Shown in pieces: positions 442 to 40,819 of a DNA stretch of 40,819 bases. The position numbers were made by a program, and so were the translations under genes. The notes beneath the pieces are model-generated. The model made no database searches. It saw only the letters and a list, made by a program, of their open reading frames with translations, and had not been told where the DNA came from. This DNA comes from a virus, in IMG/VR virus record IMGVR_UViG_3300020182_000073, positions 1-40,819 of that record; one strand, given 5' to 3'. The first letter of the stretch is position 1. Each line of letters starts with the position of its first letter.

Positions 442-3400
442 TCACGGGTCTTGTGTATAACCCGGATTAACGTAGTCTTCTTGCACAAAAGAAAGATCCG
501 ACGGTGTATTTTCAACATACCCTTCGTCAACATACCCTTCGTCAACATAGATATCATCAACTCCTGCAAATGTCAATGGGAAAGATATACCTTTTTTATC
601 TTTGATAAACTGTGCAGCTTTAGTTAATGATTGCTGCAACCCTTTTCCATCTGATGGTGTACCAGATCCTTTATTATACCAGGTATTACATTTTGAGTCA
701 GGAACTAATTTATTCATATTAAGAACTATTGTTCCTGTTGTATGTTCTGATGCACCAGTTCCGGCGACACCTCTCCTAATTTGTCCTAGTATATTTCCAT
801 TCTTGGTCCAGTATGTGATTCTTTCCCCATTAATAGATATAACCCCAGGAGTTTTTCCAACCGGAGTTGGAAATTCGGATGCATCTTTTAACTCAATCTC
901 AGTGGCAGTGAAACTTAAATCACGTGCTAATTCTGTTGCTTCTTCTTCTGCAATTCTATAATAATTAACATTTCCATTCATATCATTGAAAATACTATAC
1001 GTTGATTCGAAATTGTAAATGTTTTTATTCATTTCTGTTATAATAATTACACTAGTATCAGTAACTGATATCGAGTCTGCAAAATATAATGTTCTTCCTT
1101 TTGTTACATAATCGAGATTTGCAATCATTTTGGCACCATCAATTGATACAAACAATCTTTCTGCTATCTGTCCGTCACCGAGCTCATACTCAATGTCAAG
1201 TTCTGTTACAACGGAAATTCCGTCAAATTCGCTAACATCAAATGCAATATTATCAAAGCCGCCGATTTTTGTAGATGATAAAAACTGATCCGTACCAACA
1301 AATACCCTAGTTTCAAAGTGGTAACTATCATGATCGCTAAAACTTGTAACTGCTAACAAGTCGCCGCGGGCAGGAACAACTCCAAGTAATTCAATATCAT
1401 TTGTTGTTTCATTGATGGTGTAATCTGCATTACCTGTGTAGGTTATACTAACTCTTGCACCAACTTCAGGTGGTGTAAACATTGTAACAGTAGGTACTGA
1501 GGTGCCAGTTGGTGCTGACACAGTATAATCTTGTACCGGATTTAATTTTACATCGTCGACCCATACTCTAACTTGAGAATTTGTTAAACTTGTTATTGTT
1601 TTTTCTTTGGCTGTGTTTGGCAATTTAAAATCAACAGTCGATCCGTCGCTGTCGTAATAAGCAGTGTTACTCGGACGCAATCTAGAACCATTAAGTTCTG
1701 CAATCACTGTTGTGTCCTTTGGAAGATTATTTCTAATAACTTCATCTAATCTAACCACCACTTGGGAGTCTTCGAGTTGTTCGATTTGAGTGTAAACTTT
1801 ACTGATTGTGTTTTGGCTATTTCCGCTTAATAACATATGAATATGATCATTTAGTTGTGGTGTGATCGATAAAACAACGTAGGATATGTGATTGTTATTA
1901 CTGGTTATACTATGATCTACTTCTTTACCATTGACTAGTACTAGAGAATTTTTAATTCTACTATTTTCAATTTCAAGTGCAAAAATATTAGTAGTACCAT
2001 CACTAGTAAATGTTTTATTTGCAAGAATGTTTTCTCCGGTTTGCGCAATTCTTGTAATAGTTAAAATATCACCATCTGCTATCGGATTGTCAAATACTAT
2101 TTCGCCGGTTGTCCAATCAATGCTATATGCTCTATCCTGACTACCTTCATAATACCCACCTTCTACAGTAAACAATGGAATATTGTTATTAGTTTCAGCA
2201 ATTTTTCTATATCTCGGACCTGTTTCACTAGTGTATACCAAGAAGTAATCGCCAACATCTTCTTTACTAAAATTAAATCTAGTTTGTACACCATCGCCTG
2301 TATAGCTTGTTACACCAAACTTCGGAGAGTAGCCAGTGCTTCCGCTTAGTTGTGTTGGTAGTGTATGTACAAACATTTCTAGCGTATCGTACACACTTCC
2401 TGGTACATGTTCTTCTGGAGCATAACTATGATTAGGATCTAAGAATTTACCGCCGCTGGTAATAATATCCTCTGGTCTGGTGCCTAGTGCAGTATCGGTA
2501 AATCTACTGTAAATACCTTGATCGTAAGCACTAGGTAGTGAACTAGGTACACCTTCGATGGTTAAATCGTCAGGGTCAAATGCACCTATATCAAACCCTG
2601 AGCCACCTTCAAATCTATCATGTGCCCATTCCTCAAAAGTAAATTCTTTGTCAGGATCTCCAGAAAATCCTGGTCTATTAACAATGTCCGTACTCCATTT
2701 TTTAAAACTACTTAAAAGTTTATGTGTGCCACTATTCACTGATGTTATATTAACAACATTTAGTAATGCTTGATCTGTTGTTAATTTAAATTGTTTTGAG
2801 TTAACAACACTAACATAATATATTGTGTCGATAGCCAGGCCACCGATTGTAGCATTTCCGTTAGGATTGTAATATAATTTTTCTTCGTCGACAAATCCAT
2901 GATCAATTGATTCATCATTATCATTTTTAAATTCAAAAATATTACTTGTAATGTTAACATCAGTACTAGGATTAAATGTAGTTAGGTAAAGCGGGTCATT
3001 GCTATCTTCAATTGAAGATTTTTCAGTTGCACCCGAATCGAAACCTGAGTTTTTAGAAAATGCAACACCAAGTACTCTAGCACCCGGGAATACTGTTCCG
3101 TTAAACAGTTGCGCTGGATCATTTGCTAGCATACCGTCCACTGGTTTATACAATTTCCAAGTACGATCTAGATGACTAATAACTGATCCTGCTTCCAATT
3201 TGGTTAAGTTTGTAGTACTAAATCCACTTGTAGCACTTGTATAATCAACATCAACTGTGTAGAAAACATTGTTGTAGAACACTACATCGCCTGCATAGTA
3301 AGCAAAATTGTTTTTCCAGTTTAGTACACTTGGAGTATTATCAATTAAACTACCGTCGAGTGTTACTGTAGTTCCACTTATATCAATATTATTGATGCCG

Positions 3401-6400
3401 GCAGTTGTTCCTAGTGCACGTATTGCAGATTGTAGCGTAGATTGATGCAGACCGCGAACAGTATCTCTGCTGTCAAAGAACTGTACACGACTACGAACAA
3501 CACTAGTACAATCGCTAGACTTGTCACTGTCATTGTAGAATCTAAAGTTTGGCACATCTAATGCAGGGAATGTTGTGGTATCGTTGACCCAATTGCCGTT
3601 ACTGAAAATGTCAAGTACTAGGTCTAATACGCTTGCACCTGCATTACTTCTGGTTGTGCTTCTTGCAAAAATAGTTTCGTTACTTAAATCCACCGGTTGT
3701 CCTGCTGTTCCAGATCCAACTCCTACACCTGTTGCTATAAATTTTGTACCTGGTTTGTTTGAACTTGCGCCGATTTCTTTAAAGTTAGTAGTTCCGTTGC
3801 TAAGAATTTCATACTGCTCACCAATTACAAAACTTCCTGCGTTTATTGTATTTTTAAACTCAACTAGATATCCACTGTTACGGCTAACACGATCAAATTT
3901 AACTGTAGTGTTGAAACTACGAATCTTTTTATTAACTAGCACTGCACTTAGTTGAGCCGGATTATCGCTTTGCTCTTCTAATGTAACAGTAGGGGTACTA
4001 ATAAATCCGCTGCCTGGATTAGTTACTACAATACTAGTAATTTTATTAGCATTTAACACTGCCTTAGCAGTTGCGCCAGAGCCGCCGCCGCCGGATATTT
4101 TTACAGTAGGTGTAGTTAGGTACGTGCCGCCATCGTTTACAACAATGCTTCCAACTTCTAATTTATAGTTATCTGTCCAATCAGCCCATGGTGCTAGTAA
4201 CAATTTGTTATTGTCTTCGACTGTGCTTCCAGTTGGGCTTCGATAAGTGTTGCTGTTGAAACTATAATAACTGGGCAAATCAAAATCAGTTGTTTTTAAA
4301 TCTGCATTGTCGGTGCTGTTGTACTGTAGTACAAATTCACTGATTTTTGTATGATACGGTTTAGTTTCTTCAATATAATTTCTAATAAAGTCTTGGTTAT
4401 CTTTTTGATAAACTGTAACTTGTTGCAGAGCACGTTGCTGCTGATTTATTTTAATTAAACTAGTTTTAGTTGCAAAATCTAAGGATTTGTTTTTACTCAA
4501 TGCATATTTTAGCATATGAAGAAACCATTGGTTCTTTTCAATGGCATGTTCGTTAATAAAGAAATCTTCATACACAGCTCTAACAATTTTCTGTATTTCA
4601 AGACTTGGATTGTCGTCGTATAATTGCAATCCAAACCCATCTATATCAAAATTTAAGTTTAATAATTCTGTTTTATAAATGCTTTGATTAATTTTAAGTG
4701 TACTGTTTTCTTCTTGAACAGTTACCCACGAATCATTTTGTTTTTGCACAACCTTAAATAAACCTAACCCGTTGTCTTTAATTTTTACAAATTCGCCTTC
4801 GCTGGCAACAACACTGCGTAGATTGTATTCATATTCAACAACCTTGCTAAAGTTTCCTGGTACAACTACATTAGGATCAGTCCAGGTGACACGACTAATG
4901 TAGCGTGAGTTTTTATAAACTTGTACTCGTTTCTTAACCCATTCTTTGCTAGCTTGTAGTTCGTAAAGTACCCAACGATTCTTTGTAGTTTCGTCATTTT
5001 TAACAAATACAAGATAGCCAGTAACAAGAATGCCAGTTTCTAAGTATGTTAGTTCGACATAGTTATCTACTGCTTCGTCATATTCATGTGACTTTAGTTC
5101 TGGTTCACTTGCAAGTATATTATCAATATTCTTACTGTAAACAACTGGTGTTGTTTTCATAAACGAATTAAAATATTCCACAGCTTGCTTTACTGCATCT
5201 CTGCGATCAGTAAACATTGTCTGCCTAGGTCTGAAGTCAATGCCATATCTTAGATAACTGTTTAGTTTAATATCAGGAACTAGATTGCCGCTGGTGTCAG
5301 CACCTGCTAAACTATCAATGAGTTTTGTAATTAAATCTTCGTTAGCAACACTAGTCACATCACCTTCATTGATCAGTTGATATTCTTGATGAAGTAGATT
5401 ATTGTTTTTCTGAATATCATAGTCAATTGCTAATACTGTATTGTCTGTTAGTAAATCGTCGACATTGAATAAAGCGAATGTATTTGCTCCGGTAAACGCA
5501 ATAAACGGTACACCATTTAATGTTGGGTTAGAAATTAGATCTTCAATTTCATATATGCTGTAAATTCTATTTTCAGTATTTCTAGGTGCACGAGTTTTCC
5601 CTACAACCCAGAAATAATATTTTGTAACAAACTGTTGTGTAGTTTGATTAAATTCGGTAACAATATTAAAATTAGTAGGATTGTAAGGATATGCATCTGG
5701 GTTTTCGTCATCAAAATACTCTGACGGAGCAACATCACTTTCTGTCCATTCTGCACAAATAATTCTACTCCCTGGGAACGTAAATCCCCAGTTTGAACTG
5801 CTGTACTCTTCGCCGTCGTGATTGTATTCTACGTAACGCACTTGACTTAGATCCCACCACACTTTTCCTACATAGTCAGTACCCCAGGTTAATGCATTTC
5901 TAAGATTTTCAGTATTGCTATAAAATGCAGGGTCGATACTTGTTTGATAGGTAATTTCTTGCAACACACTACTAGTTACTTTACCTTTAATTGGGTCAAT
6001 GATATCAAGATTAGCTAATCTTTCATTTGTTTTAGAATCGTACAAGAATACACGATTAAACATATCTAAATCAACTTGCGGTTTTTCGTATCTTGTTAGT
6101 AGCCATGGCATTTTTTGTGTTGCATTTGTAAATTGATACACTACACCGCCTTCGGCTGTACTATCGTCACTGCCAGGTGCGCCTGCAATAATTGTATTTT
6201 TTGTAAATTCAATAGAATTTCCAAATTGATCTAAACTGTCGAGTTTATCAGTGTTTAATGATTCTGCAAAAACAAACTGTCCCGGATTATCAATACTCAG
6301 CTCAGGATTGCTTAGGAATTGATATATAAATACTCCTCCAGTTTGTGCTTTAGTGACACTAAATGATGTGCTGTTAGTATCAAATTTTGTTTTATTGTTG

Positions 6401-9400
6401 TCAAAAGTTTCAACTATAACTGCATCACTACGATCGGCACTAATTGCAATTAAGTCTGCTGTATTGTTTACTTTTACTACTTTACCAAAATTATTGTATG
6501 CTTTGTCTTGTGGACTATTAATTATTTGTCTAGCTACATAGACACTAATTCCCATGTCTGCAAAAAAGTCTCCAGTCTCTTGCACAAGATTTAATTTATC
6601 TGCATACACTTCACTGTCAGTTTCTACAGTAAGAATGTTCCCAACACTTAATGCAGTAACACCTGGAATATTTGCTGCATTAATTTTTGTAACCACATCA
6701 GATAGTGTGTCTGCTGCATCAAATGCAACTCTAAAATTGTTAAAGTACATTGCAGATCCTACGCTTACTGTTGGATTTTGTATTGTGCCGATTACTTTGC
6801 CAAAGAATTTTCCTTGATTTAAATATCTATATACACGGCCTGCGTCAATTGAGTCAACATCATGATATGGTGCACCAACATATAAACTACAGTCATTTGG
6901 ACATAAGTCAATACTATATCCGTATTGTGCACCAGACTGTGCATCTAATGCTGCGGTTATACTATGGTTTGTTACAAAGTTGTTTGTATCAATTTTAACA
7001 ATACTACCTCGACTTGGTGTTTCTGTAAAAGTGATAGTATTGGTGCCGTTGAATGTAAAATCTGTAGTTTCTACATCATCTACAAACACACGTGGTGTGC
7101 CTTGAATAGTTACACTTGCTGTAAAAATGTTAGTGCTTCCTGTGGCAAACTGATTTTCAACTGTCCTATTATAGACGTGCACTGTGCCAGCATTATTATT
7201 TGTAGCACTGATAATAATTTGATTAGCATCGGTACTGGTTACTACTCTATGACCAAAATCAGTTGCAGATGCTCCTGTAATAGTGTAAACATGATTAAAA
7301 TAATTTTTATAAGTTATACTAATAGAAACAACAGCAGGCGGAGTTGTAAACACAATATTGCTTCCTGAGATTGTGTATTCTTTAAACGGGATCATTAACT
7401 TATTTCCAACAATTACTTTAAGTTCATATATACTTGTTGGTTCATTTTCTAATGCAAATGTTGTTGTAGAGCCATTACCAACAGTATCTTCAGTAATTGC
7501 AAGCAATCCTTCTGTATCTAGTGTAACCATTTGGTAAGCATGTACTTTGTCTACACCAGGTTGTCCGATATACATCCATTTACCGTCGTTACTTATTGCA
7601 ATATCATTGCCAAATTTCCCATTAGCATCGTGTCCTGGTGCTGCCAAGGCTTGGTCAACGTAAAAACTGCCAAAGCGGTTTCTGCGCAGAATATGTACAT
7701 AGCCAATATTGCTGTTGCTCAATGGCGAACCTGCAGCGGCATATATATTTGATCCTGCTTCTAGTACACTACCAAATCCAACAATATCGTTACTTGGACT
7801 TAATAATTCACTATCTTCAATTAAAGCACCTGTGGTGATATTTCGTTGAAATGCCTGAACTTTGTTTGAAGATTCTGCACCAACAAGAACATAATTATTT
7901 CCGTTGTCGCCTGCTAAACTGTAACCAAAGCCGTCGTTTGCAGTTGATTCGCTGTCACTTAAACTCTGATCAAATGCAAATACATTTGAGTTTTTGTATA
8001 CGCCCCAGCCGCTGTTAGTTGCACTGTCGATGTATAGTTTGTCTTGATTCTTCCACCCTTTTGGGGGAACATTGTTGTTTGCATCTGATAGTGTATCAAA
8101 GTGAACTGTGTGTAAGTTATAAATTACTGCAACTAAGTCTTGGTTATCAAGAAATCCTCGATTATAGTTTGGTAAATCTGTTTGCACACTAATACTATTG
8201 CTGCCACTTTCGATAACTCTATAGTAACCTGTAAAATCAATTTCGCTTGGATCGCTGCTGGTATGCACTTTAATTAAAATATCATCGCCTGCTTCTAGTC
8301 CACTTACTTGTGTTGTAGTAAGAATTGCAATTCCTGATGGATCAGTTACAATACTACTAATACGTGCAGCATTAACAACTGTTTTGTAAACATTCCAATT
8401 ATCTTGTTTGTCGCTGCCGACCCAGATATACTGATCTTCTCCGATATTGTTATCAATATACGATCCTAATAAATCTAGTGTTGGACTAATATAATCAATT
8501 TCTGATTTCTGTGCATAACCTGCACTTGGTAAATTGTTAACACGTTTTTTTCTATCACGCATTGTAAATGCATTTTTATTATATGGCAATGGATGCACTA
8601 GAAGATCGTTTGATTTATAACCCACACGACCTGTTGTTTTGCTATCGTTATCGTCTAGCATTTCTATTAACAATGGAGATTTTTGTGTGTTATCATTATT
8701 AGGGATTTCTAATCTAATTTCAGTGGTATTACCAACTCCACCGAAGTTGCCACTTTTAATTGCCCACTGTTCAAAAAAGTCTGCTTGACTTTCAAAGTTG
8801 TCTAACTTTGCTCTTAACATTTTGTTAAGACTGTTGTTACTGCCTTTTTGTCTAATTAACCCTTGATAAAATTTAACTTGGCTAGTGTCACTAATTCCTA
8901 AATCATTTAGATATTCACGCTGCGAAAATCCTATTAATCCTTTTGCTAGTCTATCAGGATCAAGTTCAAGATTAGTTTCATTAAAGTCATAATATGACTT
9001 AGGCATGCCTGCCTTGTTAGCAAGGTTTGGTAGTAACTGATCAAATTGACTGTATTCAGTTATTAGCCAATCATTGCTGTTAAATTTTGTATGGCTAGTT
9101 ACACTCTCTTTAGCTGTATAATATTCACCTTTAAAAAGTACAATTTCACCTTTGCTATAGTTTCTACCTGCTTGCCACTGTGGTACATTATCTTCATTGA
9201 TAATAAATCCTGGTGCTCCAAATGTACCGTCCCAGGCAGATGTTCTAAATCCACTGATTCTAATTCTATATTGTCTATTACCACTCTCAGGCTGATAGAT
9301 AATATCGTTAAATTGTGTTTTGTTTTTAAACACAACTACGTGTTCCCAATCAACAACGTCAATGTCTGCTAGATAAATTGCAGTATCGTTTAGTGTTTCT

Positions 9401-12400
9401 ATACTAAAGTTTCTGCCGTCACGGTTGACAATATAGTTGTTTGGTTCTATAATAGCTTTATTGTTATCGTAAATTCTACTACCGTATGGGCGATTGCTAA
9501 TACTATCAACTGCACCTCGTACACTTCTAAAGTTTAATGTACTTCCAATTGGACTAAGACTAACACTGATGCCCTGATCCCATCCTTGTTGTGCCCAGAA
9601 TATAAATTCTTTTGCAGCAAGTTTCCAATTGTGCACTTCGTTTGAACCTTCAACTCGATTGTCAAATTTAAAGCCTTGGTTTTCAAGAAATCTACCGTAT
9701 CCTATTAAAAATTCAACTACATTTTCAACACTGTTTAATTCAGATCCGTATGCAAGAACAACATTCTCGTTGGTGCCAGTTGCAGATACTTCTACTGCGG
9801 TATTACCAACTTTAATAACTTGAGTATCACTGTTTTTACTTGCTACATTAACAATAAATGTTGGATCATTTAAATCATATCCACTAACTGTAAATCCGTT
9901 TGCACTTCTAGTAACAATAACACCACTGTAAACAACACTTTGTCTAGGACTACTTTTAAAAAGTTTAATATCGTAATCATCATCAGGAATTAAAATGCTA
10001 CTGTTGATACTATTAGGGCTACTCTGTTCAGCAAAGAACTTCAAAAACTTTTTATCTGTATATCCAGATGCTTTATAACTTAAACGCAATTGAATATTTC
10101 TAAGTTTATCACCAATAGCGTCTGTAATATTATAATTTAAACTGTTAGCGTATTCTGCAAGCCATGTTGTGTATCCGTTTGTTCTAGCAATAGTACCGTC
10201 AGTGTTTAATTCGCCATGTACTTGTTCAATTTTAGTTCTAGTACCAGTACTATTAAACTGCCACTGATTATTTTTAATAACTTGATCGTTTGTATCTCTG
10301 TACAATCCAAAATATTCTGCAGGTATTGAAAGTGCTAGTGCAATCTGAACTGCAAACGGATATTCACTACTGTGCTTCCATGCTGTTTCTACTGGATTGC
10401 CATCGCCGTACTTCCAGCTGCCATTTACAACATTACTGTTATTAACACTTAAACATTCATACGGGCTCAGCAATTCGCCGCTGTCATCGACCGGAATAAT
10501 GTCGCTTAACCCAGGTCTTTTGTAAACACTATCTATTGTAATGTTTCCTGGTTGTGCAATTTTACCTGCTTCAAGATCGTCCCATAATACTTTGTTGCCG
10601 CTGGTGTAAGGTGCGGGACCGTATACTTCTTCCCACCAAGTTGGTTTTGTTGTTTGCCCGAGCATTTCCCAAGGTCTTAGATTAGGTTGTTCTGTATCAT
10701 AAAAATGATTGTAAATACCTCTCCAGTATGCTGCTGGCATTGATTTACCAGTTAGTTTTTCATCAAATAATCTATAGTTCCAACTAAATTTGTCAAGACT
10801 CGAAACTTCAACAGTATCATTGATTTTAACATTGTTTTTGCCTAGCCAGCGACTAAAGTTCTGTGCAATAATATTATCAAACTCTGTTTTGCTATATGCT
10901 GTTTTTCTAAATGCGCCAGGAATATAACTATCAATATTGATTAAATCCTTATTGTAAGTTACTTTAACATTGTTATAAATGCGCTTTTCAAGTTCAAGAA
11001 TAATATTGTCTCTGAAATCTCCAAGCATTGCAATTTTGCTACCGTCGTGGCCTCTAATTACCTGATGTGTATTGTCTCCATATCCGTCAATAATAATCTC
11101 TGGTGAAAATAAAGGATACATTCCAAGTTTACTTGGAGTTGGCGGAATATGAAACCCATCTGTGCTGGTGTATTCTCTGATTTCTAGTTTATCGTCAATG
11201 TTTACTTCCAAGAATCTCATTGAGCTAGTGTCACCAGCAGGTCTAATTTTTAGTGTAATAACTATTCCGTCAATTGTATAATCTAGATTTTTAACTAATT
11301 GAGTACCGTTTAAGAAAACTAATACTGCACGATTGCTTGGAATTTTATCGTTGAATGTTTGGCTCAGGTAGTAAGTATCAATTTCAGTATTGTTTATTTC
11401 ATATGAAATTTCATTGTAGTCATTGCCTGACGGACACATATCGCTATGATAAAACGGGAACATCTCGTTTTTATTTGCAAACATTTCAGTTAACAACTCA
11501 TCTAAAGATGTACTAGAATCTGTTACATCAGTGTAACTTATTTCGCCGAGCATTCTATAAAATTTATTTTTAAATGTTTCGTATTCTCTTTGATTGTAAA
11601 GCAAACTTTCAATGAAATTTGCTTGAACATCATTTAAGAAAAGATTTGCCAAATGCGGAGCGCCTGCATTCTGAAGAATAGTACCGCCATTTAATTTAAC
11701 ATCTTTAAGATCTTTACTGTTGTTTAAACCTTGATAATTCCCGGACAAATCAGGAGTTTTTACAAATGTTTCAATGATGTGATTTCTCATCTGTCCGAGT
11801 GTAATTTCTACAATGTCAACATTTTTAGCATTATTCTCAAGGTTACTTGGAATTTCCCAATTATTGTTTTTACTAACTGTACTACTATAAATTTTTACAC
11901 TAATTTTATCAGTAGATTTTAAATCTTTAACAAAAACTAGACTGCCTACACCTCGTTCGACTTCAACATCGTATGTAGATTTGTCTATTGGTGTGTTGTT
12001 TTTATAAACAATAAGATGTGTTGGCGAAAGACTTTCTGGAATAATATCTAATTTAAATCTATTGGTTTGAGTTTCAGTTGCAAAAATAGTTTGTGTTTGG
12101 TATTGTTTACTCTTTTCAGATTTTTTACTCCATTGATTAATGTACTCAACTGTACCATCGGTGTTGTTTTTTCTTACTTTAAGACCTTTTGTTGTTGCAG
12201 TAATTGTATTTTCGTTGCTATCTTCATATACAAAGGTATCGTCATTGATAGAATCGCAGAAAACAATATCACCTACATTGTTAATACTTCTATAGCTTAA
12301 AGGAAATCCTAACTCAGTGTCGTTAGCTCCTGTGCCTTTTTTGTATCCAAAAAGTTTTGAGCCAAGGAAATTGCTTGCTTTATATGCCGAAGTATCACTA

Positions 12401-14958
12401 ATAGTAATGCCGTCGGCATTGAAAAGATCAAACAATGGTTCCTGATTGTTTGATCTTTTCTGTTGAGTTTGTGTCCATGTTCCTGCCTTGTAGTACCAAT
12501 TAGTCCCCTGGTATGTAGTTCCTAATTTACTTAGAATAACATCATTATTTTTAACTGTTGCAATTGCTTCAAGTTGTAACTGTTGGCTGTGTTTGTATGT
12601 AGCAATTACAGTTTGTCCGTTTGGTATTGCGGTGTTAAACACTAATTCGTTGCCATCAACACTGTACTGATATGTCGAATTAGGTACCGAAACACCATTA
12701 ACTTGCACAGTGAGTTGTATGTTTTCTGCTGCAAATCCTAGATCAAATCGTGTTGTACTACTATCGCCTGTAAATATAAATTGCTCTAGATTAACGTTGC
12801 TATCTACGTTAACCCAATTAATACGATAAATTGTTTTTCTAACTTCTTCATTTAAATCTGCAGAGAAGATTATAGTTTCTCCATTGACTAAAGGTACACC
12901 ATCTGAATAATAACTACTAACTATCTGATTACTGATACTAACCGGTAAGCCTTGTACATTAGAAAGTGCGTCAGTTTGTTCTGTGTTAATTGTTGTTACA
13001 GATTGTTTGTAATTTTTACCAAAATTAAACAATTGTAAATTTTTATCAAATTCAATAATAGGACGTTTTGCTTTATTATCTTGATCTGAGATAGTTGTGT
13101 AATTGTTAAATTTGTTAGACTTATTGATTACACTTTCATGAAACCAGCGGTTTTGTCTACTCCATGCACTACCTTCTTGGCTGCCCCGATTAATAACAAT
13201 ATATTGTTTGTCTTTAGGACTGTTAGAATTTCCATCAAATGAAATAGTATCAAATAAATTACTGTCAAACGGTTCTTTGACTACATCTAACCAACTTTCT
13301 GGTGTTTGTAAATTACTAACTGGAACAAGTTGTATCTTAGTTCCTACACCTTCAACATAATATTCATTATCTTCGTAGTGTGCTGGACTTGTAGTGCCTA
13401 CAAATTTAACTTTCAGGCCATTTTCAAATTCTACTCCGTTTGAACTTGTGTATGTACTACTTTCAAGAATATAATTGACATTAATTTCTGCATCATTAGT
13501 CTGGTCCACAATTTCTATTAATCCGTATACTTCAGGATCGATGCTATCTTGATAATAAAGATAATCTAATTTAGCAGTAATAGGCGGTATTAGTTTAATA
13601 CTATTATCGCTAGTCCTGTAAGCTTTTCTATTACCGTATTGAATACCTTCACCGATCTTTATTTTTTTGTTTACTAGAATTTCTTCCACTGATGTGAGTT
13701 TTAGTTTATTGTTAGAATCAATACTAATTCTAAACCAACCTAGTTTTTCTGTCTCAGTTATTATTGCATTGCTATCGTCAGGATCATTCCAGTGGTTTTC
13801 ATAATCATATACCACCAGGTTGCTTGTAACAAATCCCACACCACTTGTGAAATCTCTAATAACACGATAAACTGTGTTTGAGTAACTGACTAGATCATCT
13901 TCCTTGTAATTAGTATTTGCAGTCCAAGCAACCGAGGTCTGAGTTTTACTTCTTGTTTCTAAAAACAGTACTAGTTTTCCATCTAGATTGCGTTGACCAT
14001 CAATGCCGCCGTAATTTCTTAGAAACGTCGTTGCATCTTGGCTTTGAATTTCGTTATAACGTAAATGTCTTTGTTGTTTTGTGCTATATGAAACTAAATT
14101 TACACCATTGCCTTGTATCGGCATCTGTGTAAAGAAATCTTGTGCATCGTTTTCGGGTACGTTGAACGTAACTGTTCCAACATCTGCGCCGTTATTAGTA
14201 ACACCTAGTACTTCTCTAATATTAAGATTATCCTGCCAACTGTAAGAACTTTTTAATCCCGGTTCTGTTTGAATAAAAAAGCCGTGACCTTCTTGATTGA
14301 CATTAAATGTATATGTGCCACCACGTGCTAATCTTAGTAATGGATTTGATGTTGTTCCGATATTGCTAAAACGATACCCAGTTTCGCCTAGTCTTTTAAC
14401 ACTACCTACACTTGTATCAAAATTACTGCCATCAAATCCTTCATTGTCTACACTGCCAGTTACTACACTGTAATTCGATGGCGGAGAAACTGTTATATCT
14501 AAATTGTATTCAACTTCTGCGTTGATAATATTAATACTATTTGGACCATTGGGTAACCAATAATAGTTACTATAATTTGTAAACTTGTCAAAATCCATAA
14601 AACTAGTATATGTGTATTGATCAGCAGCAAACAATCTACTAGGGTTATCGATATTCCCCCCTAGTGAATTGATTTTGTTAATTAAATCAACATATGTACT
14701 AACAAATTTTATTTCGCCATTTTTGTTTTCGTAAACACTACTCGGCTCAAGTTGATAATTTTGTCTATCCGGCCATGCTTCAGTAACATAATTGTCAAAT
14801 TGATTTAGACTAGGATTAAACTTTCTGCCAATATATCCATCAAGACGCTCAACTTCTGGCTCACTGATAAGTTGGTCAACTGTTGCTCTCAGAAGTTTTT
14901 CGTTGGTCCTAGTTTGGAAAACACTAGGTAAAAAGTTTGAACTTTTCTTATATCCCAT
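442..14958 (-). CDS. Giant virion structural protein, probable baseplate wedge/fibre component (4838 aa)
   Basis: This is a single uninterrupted frame from ATG 14958 to TGA 442. It follows gp6, the position of gp7-type wedge proteins, so a baseplate or tail-fibre-network role is likely but inferred. Visible modules (residues approximate): a conserved-looking N-terminus (1-150); a cupredoxin-like beta segment with GGTYTFNV and TVTFNVP (205-290); three CBM5/12-like aromatic modules (341-366, 1924-1969, 3878-3905); a seven-repeat FG-GAP propeller (about 2330-2945); a glycine-rich GSGATAKA module (about 3605-3670); a G..Y.I..GTTNF module (about 3709-3745). A recurring beta-sandwich pattern, T.F.L then VFVNG then Y then I.F..P then V.I.Y, occurs about nine times, densest near the C-terminus. 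The last residues repeat YVDEG. Surface binding of glycans is plausible but unproven. No transmembrane or catalytic motif was seen. Confidence 0.85.
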   Translation of the reverse strand: MGYKKSSNFLPSVFQTRTNEKLLRATVDQLISEPEVERLDGYIGRKFNPSLNQFDNYVTEAWPDRQNYQLEPSSVYENKNGEIKFVSTYVDLINKINSLGGNIDNPSRLFAADQYTYTSFMDFDKFTNYSNYYWLPNGPNSINIINAEVEYNLDITVSPPSNYSVVTGSVDNEGFDGSNFDTSVGSVKRLGETGYRFSNIGTTSNPLLRLARGGTYTFNVNQEGHGFFIQTEPGLKSSYSWQDNLNIREVLGVTNNGADVGTVTFNVPENDAQDFFTQMPIQGNGVNLVSYSTKQQRHLRYNEIQSQDATTFLRNYGGIDGQRNLDGKLVLFLETRSKTQTSVAWTANTNYKEDDLVSYSNTVYRVIRDFTSGVGFVTSNLVVYDYENHWNDPDDSNAIITETEKLGWFRISIDSNNKLKLTSVEEILVNKKIKIGEGIQYGNRKAYRTSDNSIKLIPPITAKLDYLYYQDSIDPEVYGLIEIVDQTNDAEINVNYILESSTYTSSNGVEFENGLKVKFVGTTSPAHYEDNEYYVEGVGTKIQLVPVSNLQTPESWLDVVKEPFDSNLFDTISFDGNSNSPKDKQYIVINRGSQEGSAWSRQNRWFHESVINKSNKFNNYTTISDQDNKAKRPIIEFDKNLQLFNFGKNYKQSVTTINTEQTDALSNVQGLPVSISNQIVSSYYSDGVPLVNGETIIFSADLNEEVRKTIYRINWVNVDSNVNLEQFIFTGDSSTTRFDLGFAAENIQLTVQVNGVSVPNSTYQYSVDGNELVFNTAIPNGQTVIATYKHSQQLQLEAIATVKNNDVILSKLGTTYQGTNWYYKAGTWTQTQQKRSNNQEPLFDLFNADGITISDTSAYKASNFLGSKLFGYKKGTGANDTELGFPLSYRSINNVGDIVFCDSINDDTFVYEDSNENTITATTKGLKVRKNNTDGTVEYINQWSKKSEKSKQYQTQTIFATETQTNRFKLDIIPESLSPTHLIVYKNNTPIDKSTYDVEVERGVGSLVFVKDLKSTDKISVKIYSSTVSKNNNWEIPSNLENNAKNVDIVEITLGQMRNHIIETFVKTPDLSGNYQGLNNSKDLKDVKLNGGTILQNAGAPHLANLFLNDVQANFIESLLYNQREYETFKNKFYRMLGEISYTDVTDSSTSLDELLTEMFANKNEMFPFYHSDMCPSGNDYNEISYEINNTEIDTYYLSQTFNDKIPSNRAVLVFLNGTQLVKNLDYTIDGIVITLKIRPAGDTSSMRFLEVNIDDKLEIREYTSTDGFHIPPTPSKLGMYPLFSPEIIIDGYGDNTHQVIRGHDGSKIAMLGDFRDNIILELEKRIYNNVKVTYNKDLINIDSYIPGAFRKTAYSKTEFDNIIAQNFSRWLGKNNVKINDTVEVSSLDKFSWNYRLFDEKLTGKSMPAAYWRGIYNHFYDTEQPNLRPWEMLGQTTKPTWWEEVYGPAPYTSGNKVLWDDLEAGKIAQPGNITIDSVYKRPGLSDIIPVDDSGELLSPYECLSVNNSNVVNGSWKYGDGNPVETAWKHSSEYPFAVQIALALSIPAEYFGLYRDTNDQVIKNNQWQFNSTGTRTKIEQVHGELNTDGTIARTNGYTTWLAEYANSLNYNITDAIGDKLRNIQLRLSYKASGYTDKKFLKFFAEQSSPNSINSSILIPDDDYDIKLFKSSPRQSVVYSGVIVTRSANGFTVSGYDLNDPTFIVNVASKNSDTQVIKVGNTAVEVSATGTNENVVLAYGSELNSVENVVEFLIGYGRFLENQGFKFDNRVEGSNEVHNWKLAAKEFIFWAQQGWDQGISVSLSPIGSTLNFRSVRGAVDSISNRPYGSRIYDNNKAIIEPNNYIVNRDGRNFSIETLNDTAIYLADIDVVDWEHVVVFKNKTQFNDIIYQPESGNRQYRIRISGFRTSAWDGTFGAPGFIINEDNVPQWQAGRNYSKGEIVLFKGEYYTAKESVTSHTKFNSNDWLITEYSQFDQLLPNLANKAGMPKSYYDFNETNLELDPDRLAKGLIGFSQREYLNDLGISDTSQVKFYQGLIRQKGSNNSLNKMLRAKLDNFESQADFFEQWAIKSGNFGGVGNTTEIRLEIPNNDNTQKSPLLIEMLDDNDSKTTGRVGYKSNDLLVHPLPYNKNAFTMRDRKKRVNNLPSAGYAQKSEIDYISPTLDLLGSYIDNNIGEDQYIWVGSDKQDNWNVYKTVVNAARISSIVTDPSGIAILTTTQVSGLEAGDDILIKVHTSSDPSEIDFTGYYRVIESGSNSISVQTDLPNYNRGFLDNQDLVAVIYNLHTVHFDTLSDANNNVPPKGWKNQDKLYIDSATNSGWGVYKNSNVFAFDQSLSDSESTANDGFGYSLAGDNGNNYVLVGAESSNKVQAFQRNITTGALIEDSELLSPSNDIVGFGSVLEAGSNIYAAAGSPLSNSNIGYVHILRRNRFGSFYVDQALAAPGHDANGKFGNDIAISNDGKWMYIGQPGVDKVHAYQMVTLDTEGLLAITEDTVGNGSTTTFALENEPTSIYELKVIVGNKLMIPFKEYTISGSNIVFTTPPAVVSISITYKNYFNHVYTITGASATDFGHRVVTSTDANQIIISATNNNAGTVHVYNRTVENQFATGSTNIFTASVTIQGTPRVFVDDVETTDFTFNGTNTITFTETPSRGSIVKIDTNNFVTNHSITAALDAQSGAQYGYSIDLCPNDCSLYVGAPYHDVDSIDAGRVYRYLNQGKFFGKVIGTIQNPTVSVGSAMYFNNFRVAFDAADTLSDVVTKINAANIPGVTALSVGNILTVETDSEVYADKLNLVQETGDFFADMGISVYVARQIINSPQDKAYNNFGKVVKVNNTADLIAISADRSDAVIVETFDNNKTKFDTNSTSFSVTKAQTGGVFIYQFLSNPELSIDNPGQFVFAESLNTDKLDSLDQFGNSIEFTKNTIIAGAPGSDDSTAEGGVVYQFTNATQKMPWLLTRYEKPQVDLDMFNRVFLYDSKTNERLANLDIIDPIKGKVTSSVLQEITYQTSIDPAFYSNTENLRNALTWGTDYVGKVWWDLSQVRYVEYNHDGEEYSSSNWGFTFPGSRIICAEWTESDVAPSEYFDDENPDAYPYNPTNFNIVTEFNQTTQQFVTKYYFWVVGKTRAPRNTENRIYSIYEIEDLISNPTLNGVPFIAFTGANTFALFNVDDLLTDNTVLAIDYDIQKNNNLLHQEYQLINEGDVTSVANEDLITKLIDSLAGADTSGNLVPDIKLNSYLRYGIDFRPRQTMFTDRRDAVKQAVEYFNSFMKTTPVVYSKNIDNILASEPELKSHEYDEAVDNYVELTYLETGILVTGYLVFVKNDETTKNRWVLYELQASKEWVKKRVQVYKNSRYISRVTWTDPNVVVPGNFSKVVEYEYNLRSVVASEGEFVKIKDNGLGLFKVVQKQNDSWVTVQEENSTLKINQSIYKTELLNLNFDIDGFGLQLYDDNPSLEIQKIVRAVYEDFFINEHAIEKNQWFLHMLKYALSKNKSLDFATKTSLIKINQQQRALQQVTVYQKDNQDFIRNYIEETKPYHTKISEFVLQYNSTDNADLKTTDFDLPSYYSFNSNTYRSPTGSTVEDNNKLLLAPWADWTDNYKLEVGSIVVNDGGTYLTTPTVKISGGGGSGATAKAVLNANKITSIVVTNPGSGFISTPTVTLEEQSDNPAQLSAVLVNKKIRSFNTTVKFDRVSRNSGYLVEFKNTINAGSFVIGEQYEILSNGTTNFKEIGASSNKPGTKFIATGVGVGSGTAGQPVDLSNETIFARSTTRSNAGASVLDLVLDIFSNGNWVNDTTTFPALDVPNFRFYNDSDKSSDCTSVVRSRVQFFDSRDTVRGLHQSTLQSAIRALGTTAGINNIDISGTTVTLDGSLIDNTPSVLNWKNNFAYYAGDVVFYNNVFYTVDVDYTSATSGFSTTNLTKLEAGSVISHLDRTWKLYKPVDGMLANDPAQLFNGTVFPGARVLGVAFSKNSGFDSGATEKSSIEDSNDPLYLTTFNPSTDVNITSNIFEFKNDNDESIDHGFVDEEKLYYNPNGNATIGGLAIDTIYYVSVVNSKQFKLTTDQALLNVVNITSVNSGTHKLLSSFKKWSTDIVNRPGFSGDPDKEFTFEEWAHDRFEGGSGFDIGAFDPDDLTIEGVPSSLPSAYDQGIYSRFTDTALGTRPEDIITSGGKFLDPNHSYAPEEHVPGSVYDTLEMFVHTLPTQLSGSTGYSPKFGVTSYTGDGVQTRFNFSKEDVGDYFLVYTSETGPRYRKIAETNNNIPLFTVEGGYYEGSQDRAYSIDWTTGEIVFDNPIADGDILTITRIAQTGENILANKTFTSDGTTNIFALEIENSRIKNSLVLVNGKEVDHSITSNNNHISYVVLSITPQLNDHIHMLLSGNSQNTISKVYTQIEQLEDSQVVVRLDEVIRNNLPKDTTVIAELNGSRLRPSNTAYYDSDGSTVDFKLPNTAKEKTITSLTNSQVRVWVDDVKLNPVQDYTVSAPTGTSVPTVTMFTPPEVGARVSITYTGNADYTINETTNDIELLGVVPARGDLLAVTSFSDHDSYHFETRVFVGTDQFLSSTKIGGFDNIAFDVSEFDGISVVTELDIEYELGDGQIAERLFVSIDGAKMIANLDYVTKGRTLYFADSISVTDTSVIIITEMNKNIYNFESTYSIFNDMNGNVNYYRIAEEEATELARDLSFTATEIELKDASEFPTPVGKTPGVISINGERITYWTKNGNILGQIRRGVAGTGASEHTTGTIVLNMNKLVPDSKCNTWYNKGSGTPSDGKGLQQSLTKAAQFIKDKKGISFPLTFAGVDDIYVDEGYVDEGYVENTPSDLSFVQEDYVNPGYTQDP
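514..550 (-). repeat. 15-bp tandem repeat at the 3' end of the giant gene
   Basis: The 15-base unit AACATACCCTTCGTC occurs twice exactly at 514-528 and 529-543 and begins a third time at 544-550. On the coding strand it gives repeated YVDEG. It preserves the reading frame, so it looks like slippage-driven length variation in the C-terminal tail. Confidence 0.85.
12421..12460. repeat. Perfect 16-bp inverted repeat inside the giant gene
   Basis: GAAAAGATCAAACAAT at 12421-12436 is followed by an eight-base loop and its exact reverse complement at 12445-12460. It lies in the coding sequence for about residues 833-846 of the giant protein and would form a strong hairpin in the mRNA. No T-run follows on either strand, so it is not a typical terminator. 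Confidence 0.85.
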
Positions 14959-37441: not shown

Positions 37442-37960
37442 ATGCCAAGCAAACAAAAAGCAAAAGGTAGTGGTTGGGAACGTGATGTTGCAAAATATCT
37501 GTCAGACCTCTACGAAGAAAGTTTCATACGTGCGCCCGGAAGTGGTGCATACATCGGCGGATTGAATACATTCCGCAAACAATACCTTGACGAAGAAAAA
37601 ATTAGAACTTTTAAAGGAGATATTGTTCCTGGTGAAAGTTTTCCAAAATTAAATGTAGAATGTAAAAATTATGCCGACTTTCCATTTAATCTACTGTATA
37701 GTAACGAATGTAAGGTAATTGATACCTGGCTTGATCAGTTACTGGCACCTGCAGATAAAAAAGACATAAACATATTAGCAATGAAGTTTAATCGAAAAGG
37801 CAAATATATTGTCTACGAAACTAAACACAAAAAAATAAACCCTGGCTCAAATTACACAACGTATAACAATAAATCTAAAGAACATGGTCCCTGGTGCATA
37901 GTCGATTTTGACACCTTTTGGCAATTAAATAAAACAGTTATAAAAACTCTCTCAAAATAA
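37442..37960 (+). CDS. PD-(D/E)XK family nuclease
   Basis: The preferred start is ATG 37442, eight bases after the radical SAM stop; the ATG at 37412 would overlap that gene. The 172-residue product has an N-terminal KAKGSGWERDVAKYL helix with E13, the loop RAPGSGAYIGG, then KGD60IVPGE and NVE73CK75, the D...ExK catalytic set. Similar proteins in phages are Holliday-junction or repair-type endonucleases. Position at the end of the gp47/gp46 operon fits DNA recombination or repair. A 12-base repeat shared with the downstream non-coding region lies within its 3' part. Confidence 0.75.
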   Translation: MPSKQKAKGSGWERDVAKYLSDLYEESFIRAPGSGAYIGGLNTFRKQYLDEEKIRTFKGDIVPGESFPKLNVECKNYADFPFNLLYSNECKVIDTWLDQLLAPADKKDINILAMKFNRKGKYIVYETKHKKINPGSNYTTYNNKSKEHGPWCIVDFDTFWQLNKTVIKTLSK

Positions 37961-38004
37961 ATAAAATACCCTGGCTCAAAATAATTCAATACTAACCTGG
38001 CTCA
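37840..38004 (+). repeat. Short repeats CCTGGCTCA across the operon end
   Basis: CCCTGGCTCAAA occurs at 37840-37851 (inside the nuclease gene) and again exactly at 37969-37980 just after its stop; CCTGGCTCA recurs at 37996-38004. They may be remnants of a local duplication or a binding motif. They lie just upstream of the candidate RNA promoter. Confidence 0.7.
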
Positions 38005-38005
38005 T

Positions 38006-38034
38006 TTAGCACGGCTATATAACCACCTTATAAT
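38006..38034 (+). promoter_or_regulatory. Sigma70-like promoter for the candidate RNA
   Basis: TTAGCA (38006-38011, four of six consensus positions), 17 bases, then perfect TATAAT (38029-38034). Transcription would begin at about 38041, which is exactly where the outer helix of the RNA candidate begins. Confidence 0.5.
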
Positions 38035-38040
38035 ATACTT

Positions 38041-38226
38041 CTGAAGGTTGCTTGGGACACTCCGATAATTGTCCCTATGTGGTAAAGTAATGGCTAACTA
38101 TAGGCTAAATGATTGCGGCTCTGTGAAACAGATACAACCGCTACACATTTATATACTGCTGATATAGTATATAAATGTTTCCGTTGGATGGAGACTAAGG
38201 TAGGGAGTACAGGCTAACCGCTTCTG
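38041..38226 (+). ncRNA. Candidate structured non-coding RNA (about 186 nt or longer)
   Basis: The ends can pair: CTGAAGGTTGC at 38041-38051 with GCTAACCGCTTCTG at 38213-38226, through GAAG/CTTC and GTTGC/GC-AAC with a small bulge. Inside are a GGGACA/TGTCCC hairpin (38054-38075), a two-part hairpin GCGG with TCTGT/ACAGA and CCGC (38115-38141), and a perfect 13-bp hairpin ACATTTATATACT (38145-38178). CTAAC (38094-38098) can also pair with GTTGG (38183-38187), enclosing the last two hairpins. A promoter lies just upstream. No tRNA, tmRNA, RNase P, 6S or group I intron signature was recognised. The 3' end may extend to the hairpin at 38292-38313. Function unknown. Confidence 0.5.
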
Positions 38227-38291
38227 CTGTGTAAAAACAAATCCTTTAATATCAGTGACTAGAACTGTCTAAATCAAGACTTTTTTAAAAC

Positions 38292-38313
38292 CTTCACCCG
38301 GAAACGGGTGAAG
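38292..38313 (-). terminator. Hairpin with 9-bp GC-rich stem, probable terminator for the gp26 transcript
   Basis: CTTCACCCG, loop GAAA (plus strand) and CGGGTGAAG form a perfect stem. On the minus strand it is followed by GGTTTTAAAAAA, a short T-run, so it could end transcription coming from gp26. On the plus strand it has a GAAA tetraloop and could instead cap the 3' end of the RNA candidate. Confidence 0.55.
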
Positions 38314-38417
38314 TATGACTACTCAATCTTAATCAAGTAATTAAAAGTATCATTAAAATATTATTCTTTAAGTTATATATTCTGAAAGAAAAAAATGATG
38401 AGTGCAAACGAATCATT

Positions 38418-38436
38418 AGATCTACTTAGTAGATCT
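38418..38436. repeat. 8-bp palindromic hairpin after the gp26 frameshift stop
   Basis: AGATCTAC, loop TTA and GTAGATCT form a perfect hairpin 10 bases beyond the stop codon of the frameshifted gp26 product. No T-run follows, so termination is uncertain; mRNA 3'-end protection is an alternative. Confidence 0.6.
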
Positions 38437-38446
38437 CTTAACTGAA

Positions 38447-38677
38447 CTAGTAAATTGCTTGTTTGATCTTCTTACTAGTTTCCATGTTGTTCTTGATCAA
38501 ACTATTAATAGAAGCTCTATCTTTTCCACTGAGTTGCCATGCTTCAGATATGCTTAGTCCTCCTCGCATCCACCAACATAAACTAACCACTGAGTCTCTG
38601 ATTTGATCTGCTTCGCTGTCGAGTTTTTTAAGTTCATCGCCGATCTCTGAAGCACTCAGTCCTAAGAGTCGGCTGCG
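38447..38677 (-). CDS. gp26 -1 frameshift extension (76 aa)
   Basis: In the -1 frame relative to gp26, 76 codons run from the end of the slippery heptamer to TAG at 38447. The product has SEIGDELKKLDSEADQIRDS, then LCWWMRGGLSISEAWQLS and KDRASINSLIKNNM, which looks like a real folded helical domain and resembles small CWYMRGG-type proteins I associate with gp26 loci of marine phages (from memory). There is no ATG, GTG or TTG before this domain, and a TAA lies a few codons upstream in its frame, so expression by slippage from gp26 is the simplest explanation. The fused protein would be about 351 residues. Confidence 0.7.
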   Translation of the reverse strand, partial: RSRLLGLSASEIGDELKKLDSEADQIRDSVVSLCWWMRGGLSISEAWQLSGKDRASINSLIKNNMETSKKIKQAIY

Positions 38678-38683
38678 AAAAAA
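38639..38683 (-). promoter_or_regulatory. Programmed -1 frameshift site: slippery heptamer and stem-loop
   Basis: The heptamer T-TTT-TTC (38677-38683) is in the correct phase with gp26 codons AAT TTT TTC. After a three-base spacer, GCCGA-CTCT (38673-38665) pairs with AGAG-A-TCGGC (38648-38639), a nine-base-pair stem with one bulged A. The gp26 stop codon (38662-38664) lies in its loop. Confidence 0.7.
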
Positions 38684-39501
38684 TTTGATGGATTAAATTC
38701 GAATTGTGTAGATTCTTCATGTCCACAAGCCGCACACACAAAAGGAATTTTTGGCGTACTGTATTGGGCATTCTTTTCGTCGATACCTTTTTTTAGTAAA
38801 TCAAAATCTTTTCTACTGCTCTGATTAATAAATTCAATAATATGTTCTTTATTTGTTACTTTACTTCCGTCTGGTAGTATCACATATTCGATATATTCAA
38901 TCATTTGATTGGTGCTAATTTCTCCGAGTTTTTGTATTGTATCTCTCAAAATCTTTTCTCTAGATTCAATTGTTAATTCTGAGCTTTGTGCAGCAAGAAT
39001 AGCACGTTGTTGTTCATACAATTTTTGTGCACTTAAATTTGACATTTCGTATGTACTAGGTTTAAGCATAAAATGCAAATCGCCAACTTGTACAGTTGTG
39101 TTAAAATCTGGAAACTGCAAACTTTCAAGCACACCATGTAGATTTATACCAAATTTTGTAGTTTCACTGCATACACTACAAGCTTTTTCGACGTCAAGTT
39201 CATTTCCGTAACTAGCAATTCTTAATGCAATAAACAAATATTCAATGTCAACATTAGGACCGGCCCATGCATTTTTAATATTTGGCACACAGCTCTGTAT
39301 AACTTCAACACTAGTTGATCCGTTCATAAGTCCGTCTGCGTTTTTCATAATTAAATCATCGTGGCCAGTCATAGCCATGATTGGTAATTCTTCGTTAGGT
39401 GGAATTTCGATACTACCTTCAGGCCACCATTTACCGCCACTGGGTAATTTGATATAAATTTCTGGTTTTCTTAGATAATTCTTTAAAGGGTTGTCTGTCA
39501 C
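38662..39501 (-). CDS. gp26: Baseplate hub assembly protein gp26-like
   Basis: The start is GTG 39501, preceded by AAGGA at seven bases. The 279-residue product has the T4 baseplate (gp26-type) opening NPLKNYLRKPEIYIKLPSGG, then MTGHDDLIMKNADGLMNG, and a C-terminal zinc-ribbon-like set: CSVC near 110 and CAAC near 260. T4 gp26 is 208 aa and helps assemble the baseplate hub. The reading frame ends NFFAADS, but a -1 slip at its last Phe codons would extend it by 76 residues, as in the tail-assembly chaperone pairs of other phages. A late promoter lies 37 bases upstream. Confidence 0.82.
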   Translation of the reverse strand: MTDNPLKNYLRKPEIYIKLPSGGKWWPEGSIEIPPNEELPIMAMTGHDDLIMKNADGLMNGSTSVEVIQSCVPNIKNAWAGPNVDIEYLFIALRIASYGNELDVEKACSVCSETTKFGINLHGVLESLQFPDFNTTVQVGDLHFMLKPSTYEMSNLSAQKLYEQQRAILAAQSSELTIESREKILRDTIQKLGEISTNQMIEYIEYVILPDGSKVTNKEHIIEFINQSSRKDFDLLKKGIDEKNAQYSTPKIPFVCAACGHEESTQFEFNPSNFFAADS

Positions 39502-39513
39502 TGTAAAATCCTT

Positions 39514-39569: not shown

Positions 39570-40819
39570 ATGAGATTTCAAGCAGATATACCTGGTGTTG
39601 GACAAATTGATGTTGAAGGCAACTTTGCAACCAACGATAGTGTACAAGAACTAATAGCAATAATGAGGAATCAAGGCAGAACGCCTGGCTCTTCGACTAG
39701 TTTTAGCAAAACTGCTCAAGATGCTGAAGACGGACTAGCAAGTTTTAGCGATGAACTAGAAGATGCCGAACAATCTCAAAAGAAACTAACCGATCGTGTT
39801 ACAGGATTAGCAGCTAGTGTCCAAGGCGGAACTGACACTATGATGAAATTCAGCGACAGCGGCGGTAACATGACCGATGTTATGGATACCATGGCGCCGG
39901 TAATAGAAAGTACTGCTCGAGGTATTGGCGGATTAGTTCCTATATTTGGCGAAGGTCTAGAAGAATTAGCCGGCGCCGCAGCTACCGCAGCATTTGGGTT
40001 AGCAACAGCCGCTGTTGGAATGATTGAAGGGTTCATTGGACTTAATAAACAATTATACAATATGAACTTAATGGGCACTGGCGGATTTAAACAATTTGCA
40101 GACGCTGCTGAAACAGCACAAATACCTGTTAATGAATTTGCTTCTGCTATGATACAAAGTACAGATAAACTTAGATTATTTGGCAGTGGTGCGCCCGGCG
40201 GCATTGGACAAATTAGCAATGCATTAGGTCAACTAAGTAGAGATGGTACCTTAGAAACTCTATATAGCTTAGGATTTACAACCGAAGAAGTTGTAGCAGG
40301 TATGGCTGATTATGCTGTAGCAGCAGAACGCAGCGGTCGAGCACTAAGTACACCAGAACTAGCAGCAGGAAGTGCTGTATATTTAAAAAATCTACGTGAA
40401 CTGTCAAGGTTAACTGGTGTAAGTGTAAAAGAACAACAAGCAGAAATTGACGCACAGCGAGCAAATCTATTTGTACAAAATCAAATGCTAAATCTTGCAC
40501 CTGAACAACGTGCACAAGCAATGGCATTTGCAAGTGCTATCCCTGAAGCATTAGTGCCTATTAAAGACTTTATTATAAGTGGACAAAGTTATAATACCGA
40601 AAGTGCATTAATGGTATCTCAAATGCCAACCGCTGCAACTGCACTTAGACAAGCATATCAGCAAATTGAATCCGGCAATTTAAGTGCAAGTCAAGCACAA
40701 GAACTGTTAAAAACTACATTAGAAAATAACAGAACAGCAATTGATACAGAATTACAAAATGTAACTAGAACATTTGGTGTTGCTCCTCAAGGAGTTATCA
40801 CTGAAGGTGAACAATTAGG
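39570..40819 (+). CDS. Tape-measure-like tail protein, N-terminal part (runs off the window)
   Basis: The frame starts at ATG 39570 (MRFQADIPGVGQIDVEG) and is open to the window end, giving 416 residues. It has an N-terminal coiled-coil-like stretch (DELEDAEQSQKKLTDRV), then a hydrophobic Gly/Ala-rich section around residues 113-160 (AGAAATAAFGLATAAVGMIE) and long Gln/Ala-rich helices. This is the usual composition of tail tape-measure proteins, which set tail length and enter the cell envelope on ejection. The gp29 role in T4-like phages would match. The upstream ATG at 39555 stops after four codons. The ribosome binding site is weak. Assignment is by composition and position beside gp26. 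Confidence 0.6.
   Translation, partial: MRFQADIPGVGQIDVEGNFATNDSVQELIAIMRNQGRTPGSSTSFSKTAQDAEDGLASFSDELEDAEQSQKKLTDRVTGLAASVQGGTDTMMKFSDSGGNMTDVMDTMAPVIESTARGIGGLVPIFGEGLEELAGAAATAAFGLATAAVGMIEGFIGLNKQLYNMNLMGTGGFKQFADAAETAQIPVNEFASAMIQSTDKLRLFGSGAPGGIGQISNALGQLSRDGTLETLYSLGFTTEEVVAGMADYAVAAERSGRALSTPELAAGSAVYLKNLRELSRLTGVSVKEQQAEIDAQRANLFVQNQMLNLAPEQRAQAMAFASAIPEALVPIKDFIISGQSYNTESALMVSQMPTAATALRQAYQQIESGNLSASQAQELLKTTLENNRTAIDTELQNVTRTFGVAPQGVITEGEQL

Follow-up and report, generated by a model that had tools for sequence, protein, structure and literature searches.

The gp26-like gene near one end of the viral sequence analysed here raises the question of how an open reading frame that continues past its stop codon in the −1 frame, and that has no early start codon of its own, could be translated. 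The window, by which we mean the whole stretch of DNA analysed, is the entire 40,819-base IMG/VR virus record IMGVR_UViG_3300020182_000073 (positions 1 to 40,819). A preliminary description of the locus proposed a programmed −1 frameshift that extends gp26, and this proposal is strongly supported, as far as sequence comparison can carry it, by a census of relatives, by a codon control and by the absence of an early start in the open frame. In our reading, one gene very probably gives rise to a short and a long form of a tail assembly chaperone through a −1 slip on the heptamer T TTT TTC.

The locus and its surroundings

Genes for baseplate wedge, hub/lysozyme, late sigma factor and SbcC/SbcD-like proteins are present in the record, which probably represents part of a larger myophage genome; a DNA-level search of phage records found no near match to the sequence. 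One third of the record is occupied by an open reading frame of 4838 residues (442-14958, minus strand). The predicted protein P0002 gave no Pfam match and no significant PHROG match. A 12-base repeat around CCTGGCTCA occurs in three copies at 37838-38004, at and just past the end of a RusA-like gene, and the non-coding region 37961-38446 holds a perfect 13-bp inverted repeat (38145-38178) as well as a 9-bp hairpin, CTTCACCCG/CGGGTGAAG, at 38292-38313; Rfam and tRNA searches of this region returned no match. The features of the locus are as follows.

39570-40819, plus strand: divergent open reading frame that leaves the contig end, candidate tape measure protein gene by its position
39509-39513, minus strand: Shine-Dalgarno-like AAGGA upstream of the GTG start, found by sequence inspection
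38662-39501, minus strand: gp26-like gene with a GTG start, 279 aa, putative short chaperone form (open reading frame, PF12322, phrog_150)
38677-38683, minus strand: T TTT TTC slippery heptamer in the gp26 reading phase, 5 codons ahead of the gp26 stop, kept by all 160 relatives
38662-38664, minus strand: TAG stop that closes the short form in the zero frame, at the end of the open reading frame
38639-38673, minus strand: bulged hairpin starting 3 nt past the heptamer, a possible stimulator
38447-38677, minus strand: −1 extension of 76 codons and a stop, predicted C-terminal domain of the long form (open frame, 33 loci)

For the divergent open reading frame, comparison with Pfam and PHROG gave no convincing match, and in phage RaK2 the annotation of the gene at the equivalent position notes similarity to a tape measure protein.

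The gp26-like protein and its extension

The gp26-like protein matches the Pfam family PF12322 (T4_baseplate) with 63.6 bits and E 2.7e-17, against a curated cut-off of 24.5, and phrog_150 (baseplate hub) with E 7.5e-21. Its predicted structure is confident (pLDDT 90.5), and a comparison of the model with BFVD retrieved T4-like baseplate hub proteins with E down to 8e-25 and a TM of 0.90. The model also matches uncharacterised proteins of the large phages Special G, Motura, phiRSL1, PaBG and pT24 (E about 1e-8 to 4e-6), which, judging from the structural model, may be unrecognised chaperones. Searches of the PDB by sequence and with Foldseek found no solved structure, of a lambda-type chaperone or otherwise, matching either gp26 or the −1 extension.

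The gene ends in the codons AAT TTT TTC GCA GCC GAC TCT TAG, and the three signs on which the preliminary description relied are all found there; to that description we add that the gene lies on the minus strand. The heptamer T-TTT-TTC lies in frame at 38683-38677; a nine-pair stem with one bulged A follows three bases later, at 38673-38639; and the −1 frame is open for 76 codons up to a stop at 38449-38447 and offers no ATG, GTG or TTG before the GTG at 38590, some 30 codons beyond the slip. The product of this frame, which had been described as a folded-looking domain, is modelled as a four-helix domain with a pLDDT of 88.6. A slip at the heptamer would join this domain to gp26 in a predicted long product of 351 aa. 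The sequence of the extension is conserved among relatives, and 33 viral contigs were found to encode the downstream domain, which, where gp26 is also present, always lies in the −1 frame with a T TTT TTC junction. Since one of the patterns used in that search touched the junction itself, the search was repeated with patterns taken from the gp26 body.

Conservation of the slip site

We chose 160 relatives by the gp26 body only, 80 near the window protein (the window group) and 80 near cyanophage gp26, and all 160 have an in-frame T TTT TTC, placed 2-7 codons ahead of the gp26 stop, as well as an open −1 frame. At 50% identity these relatives fall into 13 (window group) and 2 (cyanophage) clusters, and at 70% into 58 and 17, so that the independent events are fewer than 160. 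The joint retention of the heptamer and the open −1 frame is, to judge by these alignments, far beyond chance. Homopolymer runs are prone to sequencing and assembly errors, and one might therefore take the locus for an erroneous frameshift or a decayed gene; given that site, phase and open frame are identical in 160 separate contigs and in many cultured genomes, and that the extension is conserved and confidently modelled, the probability of such an artefact is negligible, and we regard it as refuted by these comparisons.

The codons tell the same site apart from the remainder of the gene. The phenylalanine pair at the junction is written TTT-TTC in 73/73 window-group and 78/78 cyanophage unique genes (151 in total). 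Elsewhere in these genes, TTT-TTC encodes only 8/48 and 0/92 of the Phe-Phe pairs, respectively. Codon identity among sequences with the same residue is 1.00 at both junction Phe codons in both groups, and in the window group only, also at the codon preceding the pair; at the other measured positions it is mostly 0.3-0.6. Two of the checks that the preliminary description had proposed, retention of heptamer and downstream frame in relatives and synonymous-site conservation, here at the heptamer, came out in favour of the frameshift.

Two other ways of obtaining the products have to be weighed against these data. The downstream domain could be a separate overlapping gene, translated by coupling at the gp26 stop, with the heptamer incidental to it, and in some phages, described below, the domain does have its own ATG over that stop, with or without the heptamer. 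This arrangement is very improbable for the window, in which the first common start is the distant GTG, and 35/80 window-group and 18/80 cyanophage loci have no ATG, GTG or TTG in the open frame through extension codon 12; moreover, coupling would leave the synonymous-site fixation of the heptamer unexplained. RNA polymerase might instead slip on the T run, which is six to eight T long, and so produce a mixed mRNA pool from which both forms are made by ordinary translation. We consider this a shade less probable still, because bacterial transcriptional slippage generally takes place on T runs longer than six, and because in nearly all sequences a C ends the run after six T, as fits tRNA re-pairing on T TTT TTC. 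Ribosomal frameshifting on the heptamer remains the reading that we favour.

The downstream hairpin

The predicted stem consists of nine pairs in two runs separated by the bulged A, with a folding energy of −15.5 kcal/mol and a z of −3.1 relative to dinucleotide shuffles. It can also form, despite a different loop, in L008 and L009, the two lineages closest to the window after its own. Consensus folding of the window-group loci and of the cyanophage loci gave no common RNA structure in either case, and the hairpin is lineage-specific; its 3-nt spacer is also short for a stimulator. Folding downstream of the slip site is stronger than within genes, a figure that ignores the kinship among the sequences.

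Other arrangements in cultured phages

Among cultured and annotated phages, which belong to many lineages, an equivalent junction is found in 121Q, MIJ3, Atu_ph07, Phosso and SCTP-2, as well as in KBS-M-1A. T TTT TTC itself forms the junction in RaK2, Vibrio 2.275, Vibrio D527, YB07, P-TIM68 and Desulfovibrio 7757; the junction ends in TTT in HTVC008M, Melnitz-1, Ochrobactrum OC, XacN1 and RAS14, and in TTG in RHph_N34. In Synechococcus phage S-SCSM1 (L046:2971-3874), gp26 carries the heptamer at its end; the extension, however, lies in the +1 frame and has its own ATG. No heptamer is present in Cygsa01, BX-1 and K351, in which an ATG belonging to the domain overlaps the gp26 stop, nor in Vi01, which has no overlapping ATG either. 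Both elements occur together in 121Q (L043:4828-5037), Phosso (L041:4013-4243) and Atu_ph07 (L040:4001-4237), where the heptamer is accompanied by an ATG in the extension frame that overlaps the gp26 stop, and a free C-terminal protein is possible in these three phages.

The preliminary description had named as evidence against the frameshift relatives with the downstream domain in the gp26 frame or with a start codon for it, and peptides showing that it is never joined to gp26. No such evidence came up in the close relatives; in some distant ones, a start codon does overlap the gp26 stop. As Cygsa01, BX-1 and K351 use the overlapping start, not every member of the wider family needs to make a fused product. 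Tentatively, and with considerable doubt, one might suppose that phages within one homologous family have switched among at least three routes to the short and long pair, namely a slip site, a start overlapping the stop, and duplication as in T4, and that the jumbo phages with both a slip site and an overlapping start may make a short form, a fused long form and a free C-terminal domain.

Relation to T4 gp26 and gp51

In T4, gp26 and gp51 both belong to PF12322; gp26 is short, and gp51 consists of a gp26-like core with a C-terminal extension. The two genes are paralogous, and all five T4-type gp26 genes that were readable lack the heptamer. We searched 32 records, five of them from Straboviridae, for PF12322, and found two copies in 5/5 Straboviridae and one copy in 26/27 of the other records, with no copy scored in SCTP-2. 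The pattern is that a full-length second copy goes with the absence of the slip site.

The cyanophage −1 extension aligns with the gp51 C-terminus (hhalign probability 95%, E 7.2e-8), and all 19 cyanophage extensions tested match phrog_634 (baseplate hub assembly catalyst). The window-group extension occupies the same place and frame as the cyanophage one; its hhalign alignment with the gp51 C-terminus is weak (probability 25%, E 8e-4), and a comparison of the two extension families with each other gave no convincing match. When the whole window-group gp26 was aligned with gp51 by hhalign, only a short zinc-ribbon-like stretch was recovered. Because the direct gp26-gp51 alignment is poor, the link from the window to gp51 runs through cyanophage gp26 and PF12322. 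The suggestion in the preliminary description that the extension may be equivalent to a second small hub assembly protein comes close, with one shift of emphasis: the extension sits at the place of the gp51 C-terminal part, so that the long form as a whole is the likely gp51 equivalent. In the annotation of Acinetobacter phage Abraxas, gp26 and gp51 are given as tape measure protein assembly chaperones.

We can propose how the gene would work. The site, its conservation and the gp26/gp51 paralogy are read directly from the sequences, whereas that ribosomes slip, how often they do so, and that the products act as chaperones we infer from the comparisons. Most ribosomes would stop at the gp26 TAG and release the 279-aa short form as the main product, while some would move back by one base at T TTT TTC, perhaps aided by the downstream hairpin, and read 76 more codons to give a minor 351-aa long form, whose C-terminal helical domain would occupy the place of the T4 gp51 C-terminal part. 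By analogy with gpG and gpGT of phage lambda, we would expect the short form to cover the tape measure protein and the less abundant long form to bring in the subunits of the tail tube.

Comparison with known systems

In phage lambda, gpG and gpGT are the abundant short and the rare −1 extended forms of a tail assembly chaperone. This frameshifted chaperone was described by Xu, Hendrix and Duda (2004), as cited in PMC9024508, and the parallel drawn with it in the preliminary description holds as an analogy: the proposed layout of an abundant short and a rare −1 extended form is alike, whereas the slip sequence differs and sequence and fold searches gave no match to a solved chaperone. T4 has the equivalent products as the paralogous genes 26 and 51 (PF12322, phrog_150/phrog_634), which resemble the present system in Pfam family, in the short form and in the core-plus-extension long form, and differ from it in being two genes without a heptamer instead of a single gene with a slip site. 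The tail assembly chaperones of Vandenendeviridae and Andersonviridae, described with phage Adele (PMC12846349), have a −1 frameshift near the 3′ end with a conserved GTTTTT; the likeness is by description, and the motif is a different one.

The preliminary description had held that such a frameshift might be undescribed for the gp26 of T4-like phages, but the principle is already published by Vladimirov et al. 2022, as reported in two papers that cite it. The Adele paper (PMC12846349) cites it for poly-T slip signals in the short-form genes of T4-like phages. According to the PRFect paper (PMC10885494), a short gene together with a longer fusion gene takes the place of frameshifting in some T4-like phages. 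The frameshift strategy is therefore already known for phage tails, and the window gene is a strong new example of it. Our own contribution lies in counting the relatives, in the codon control, in the contrast of copy numbers and in describing the alternative arrangements, part of which Vladimirov et al. may already contain.

The nearest cultured relatives of the gp26-like protein in tblastn searches are the jumbo phages of the 121Q, RaK2, Atu_ph07, Phosso and PA5oct group, which have the same junction although their gp26 proteins are only about 25-31% identical to that of the window; in some of these phages an ATG also lies over the stop. In cyanophages (Kyanoviridae), gp26 and the "baseplate hub assembly catalyst" share with the window the T TTT TTC, its phase and the −1 extension; the cyanophage extension is about 60-66 aa long, clearly gp51-like and, in public annotation, a gene of its own that starts late, whereas that of the window has 76 aa and is more divergent. 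Down to its individual codons, one slip site is thus fixed in myophages that are only very distantly related. In many cyanophages and jumbo phages, gp26 is followed by a small gene labelled "baseplate hub assembly catalyst" or "hypothetical", and such genes make better sense as frameshift extensions.
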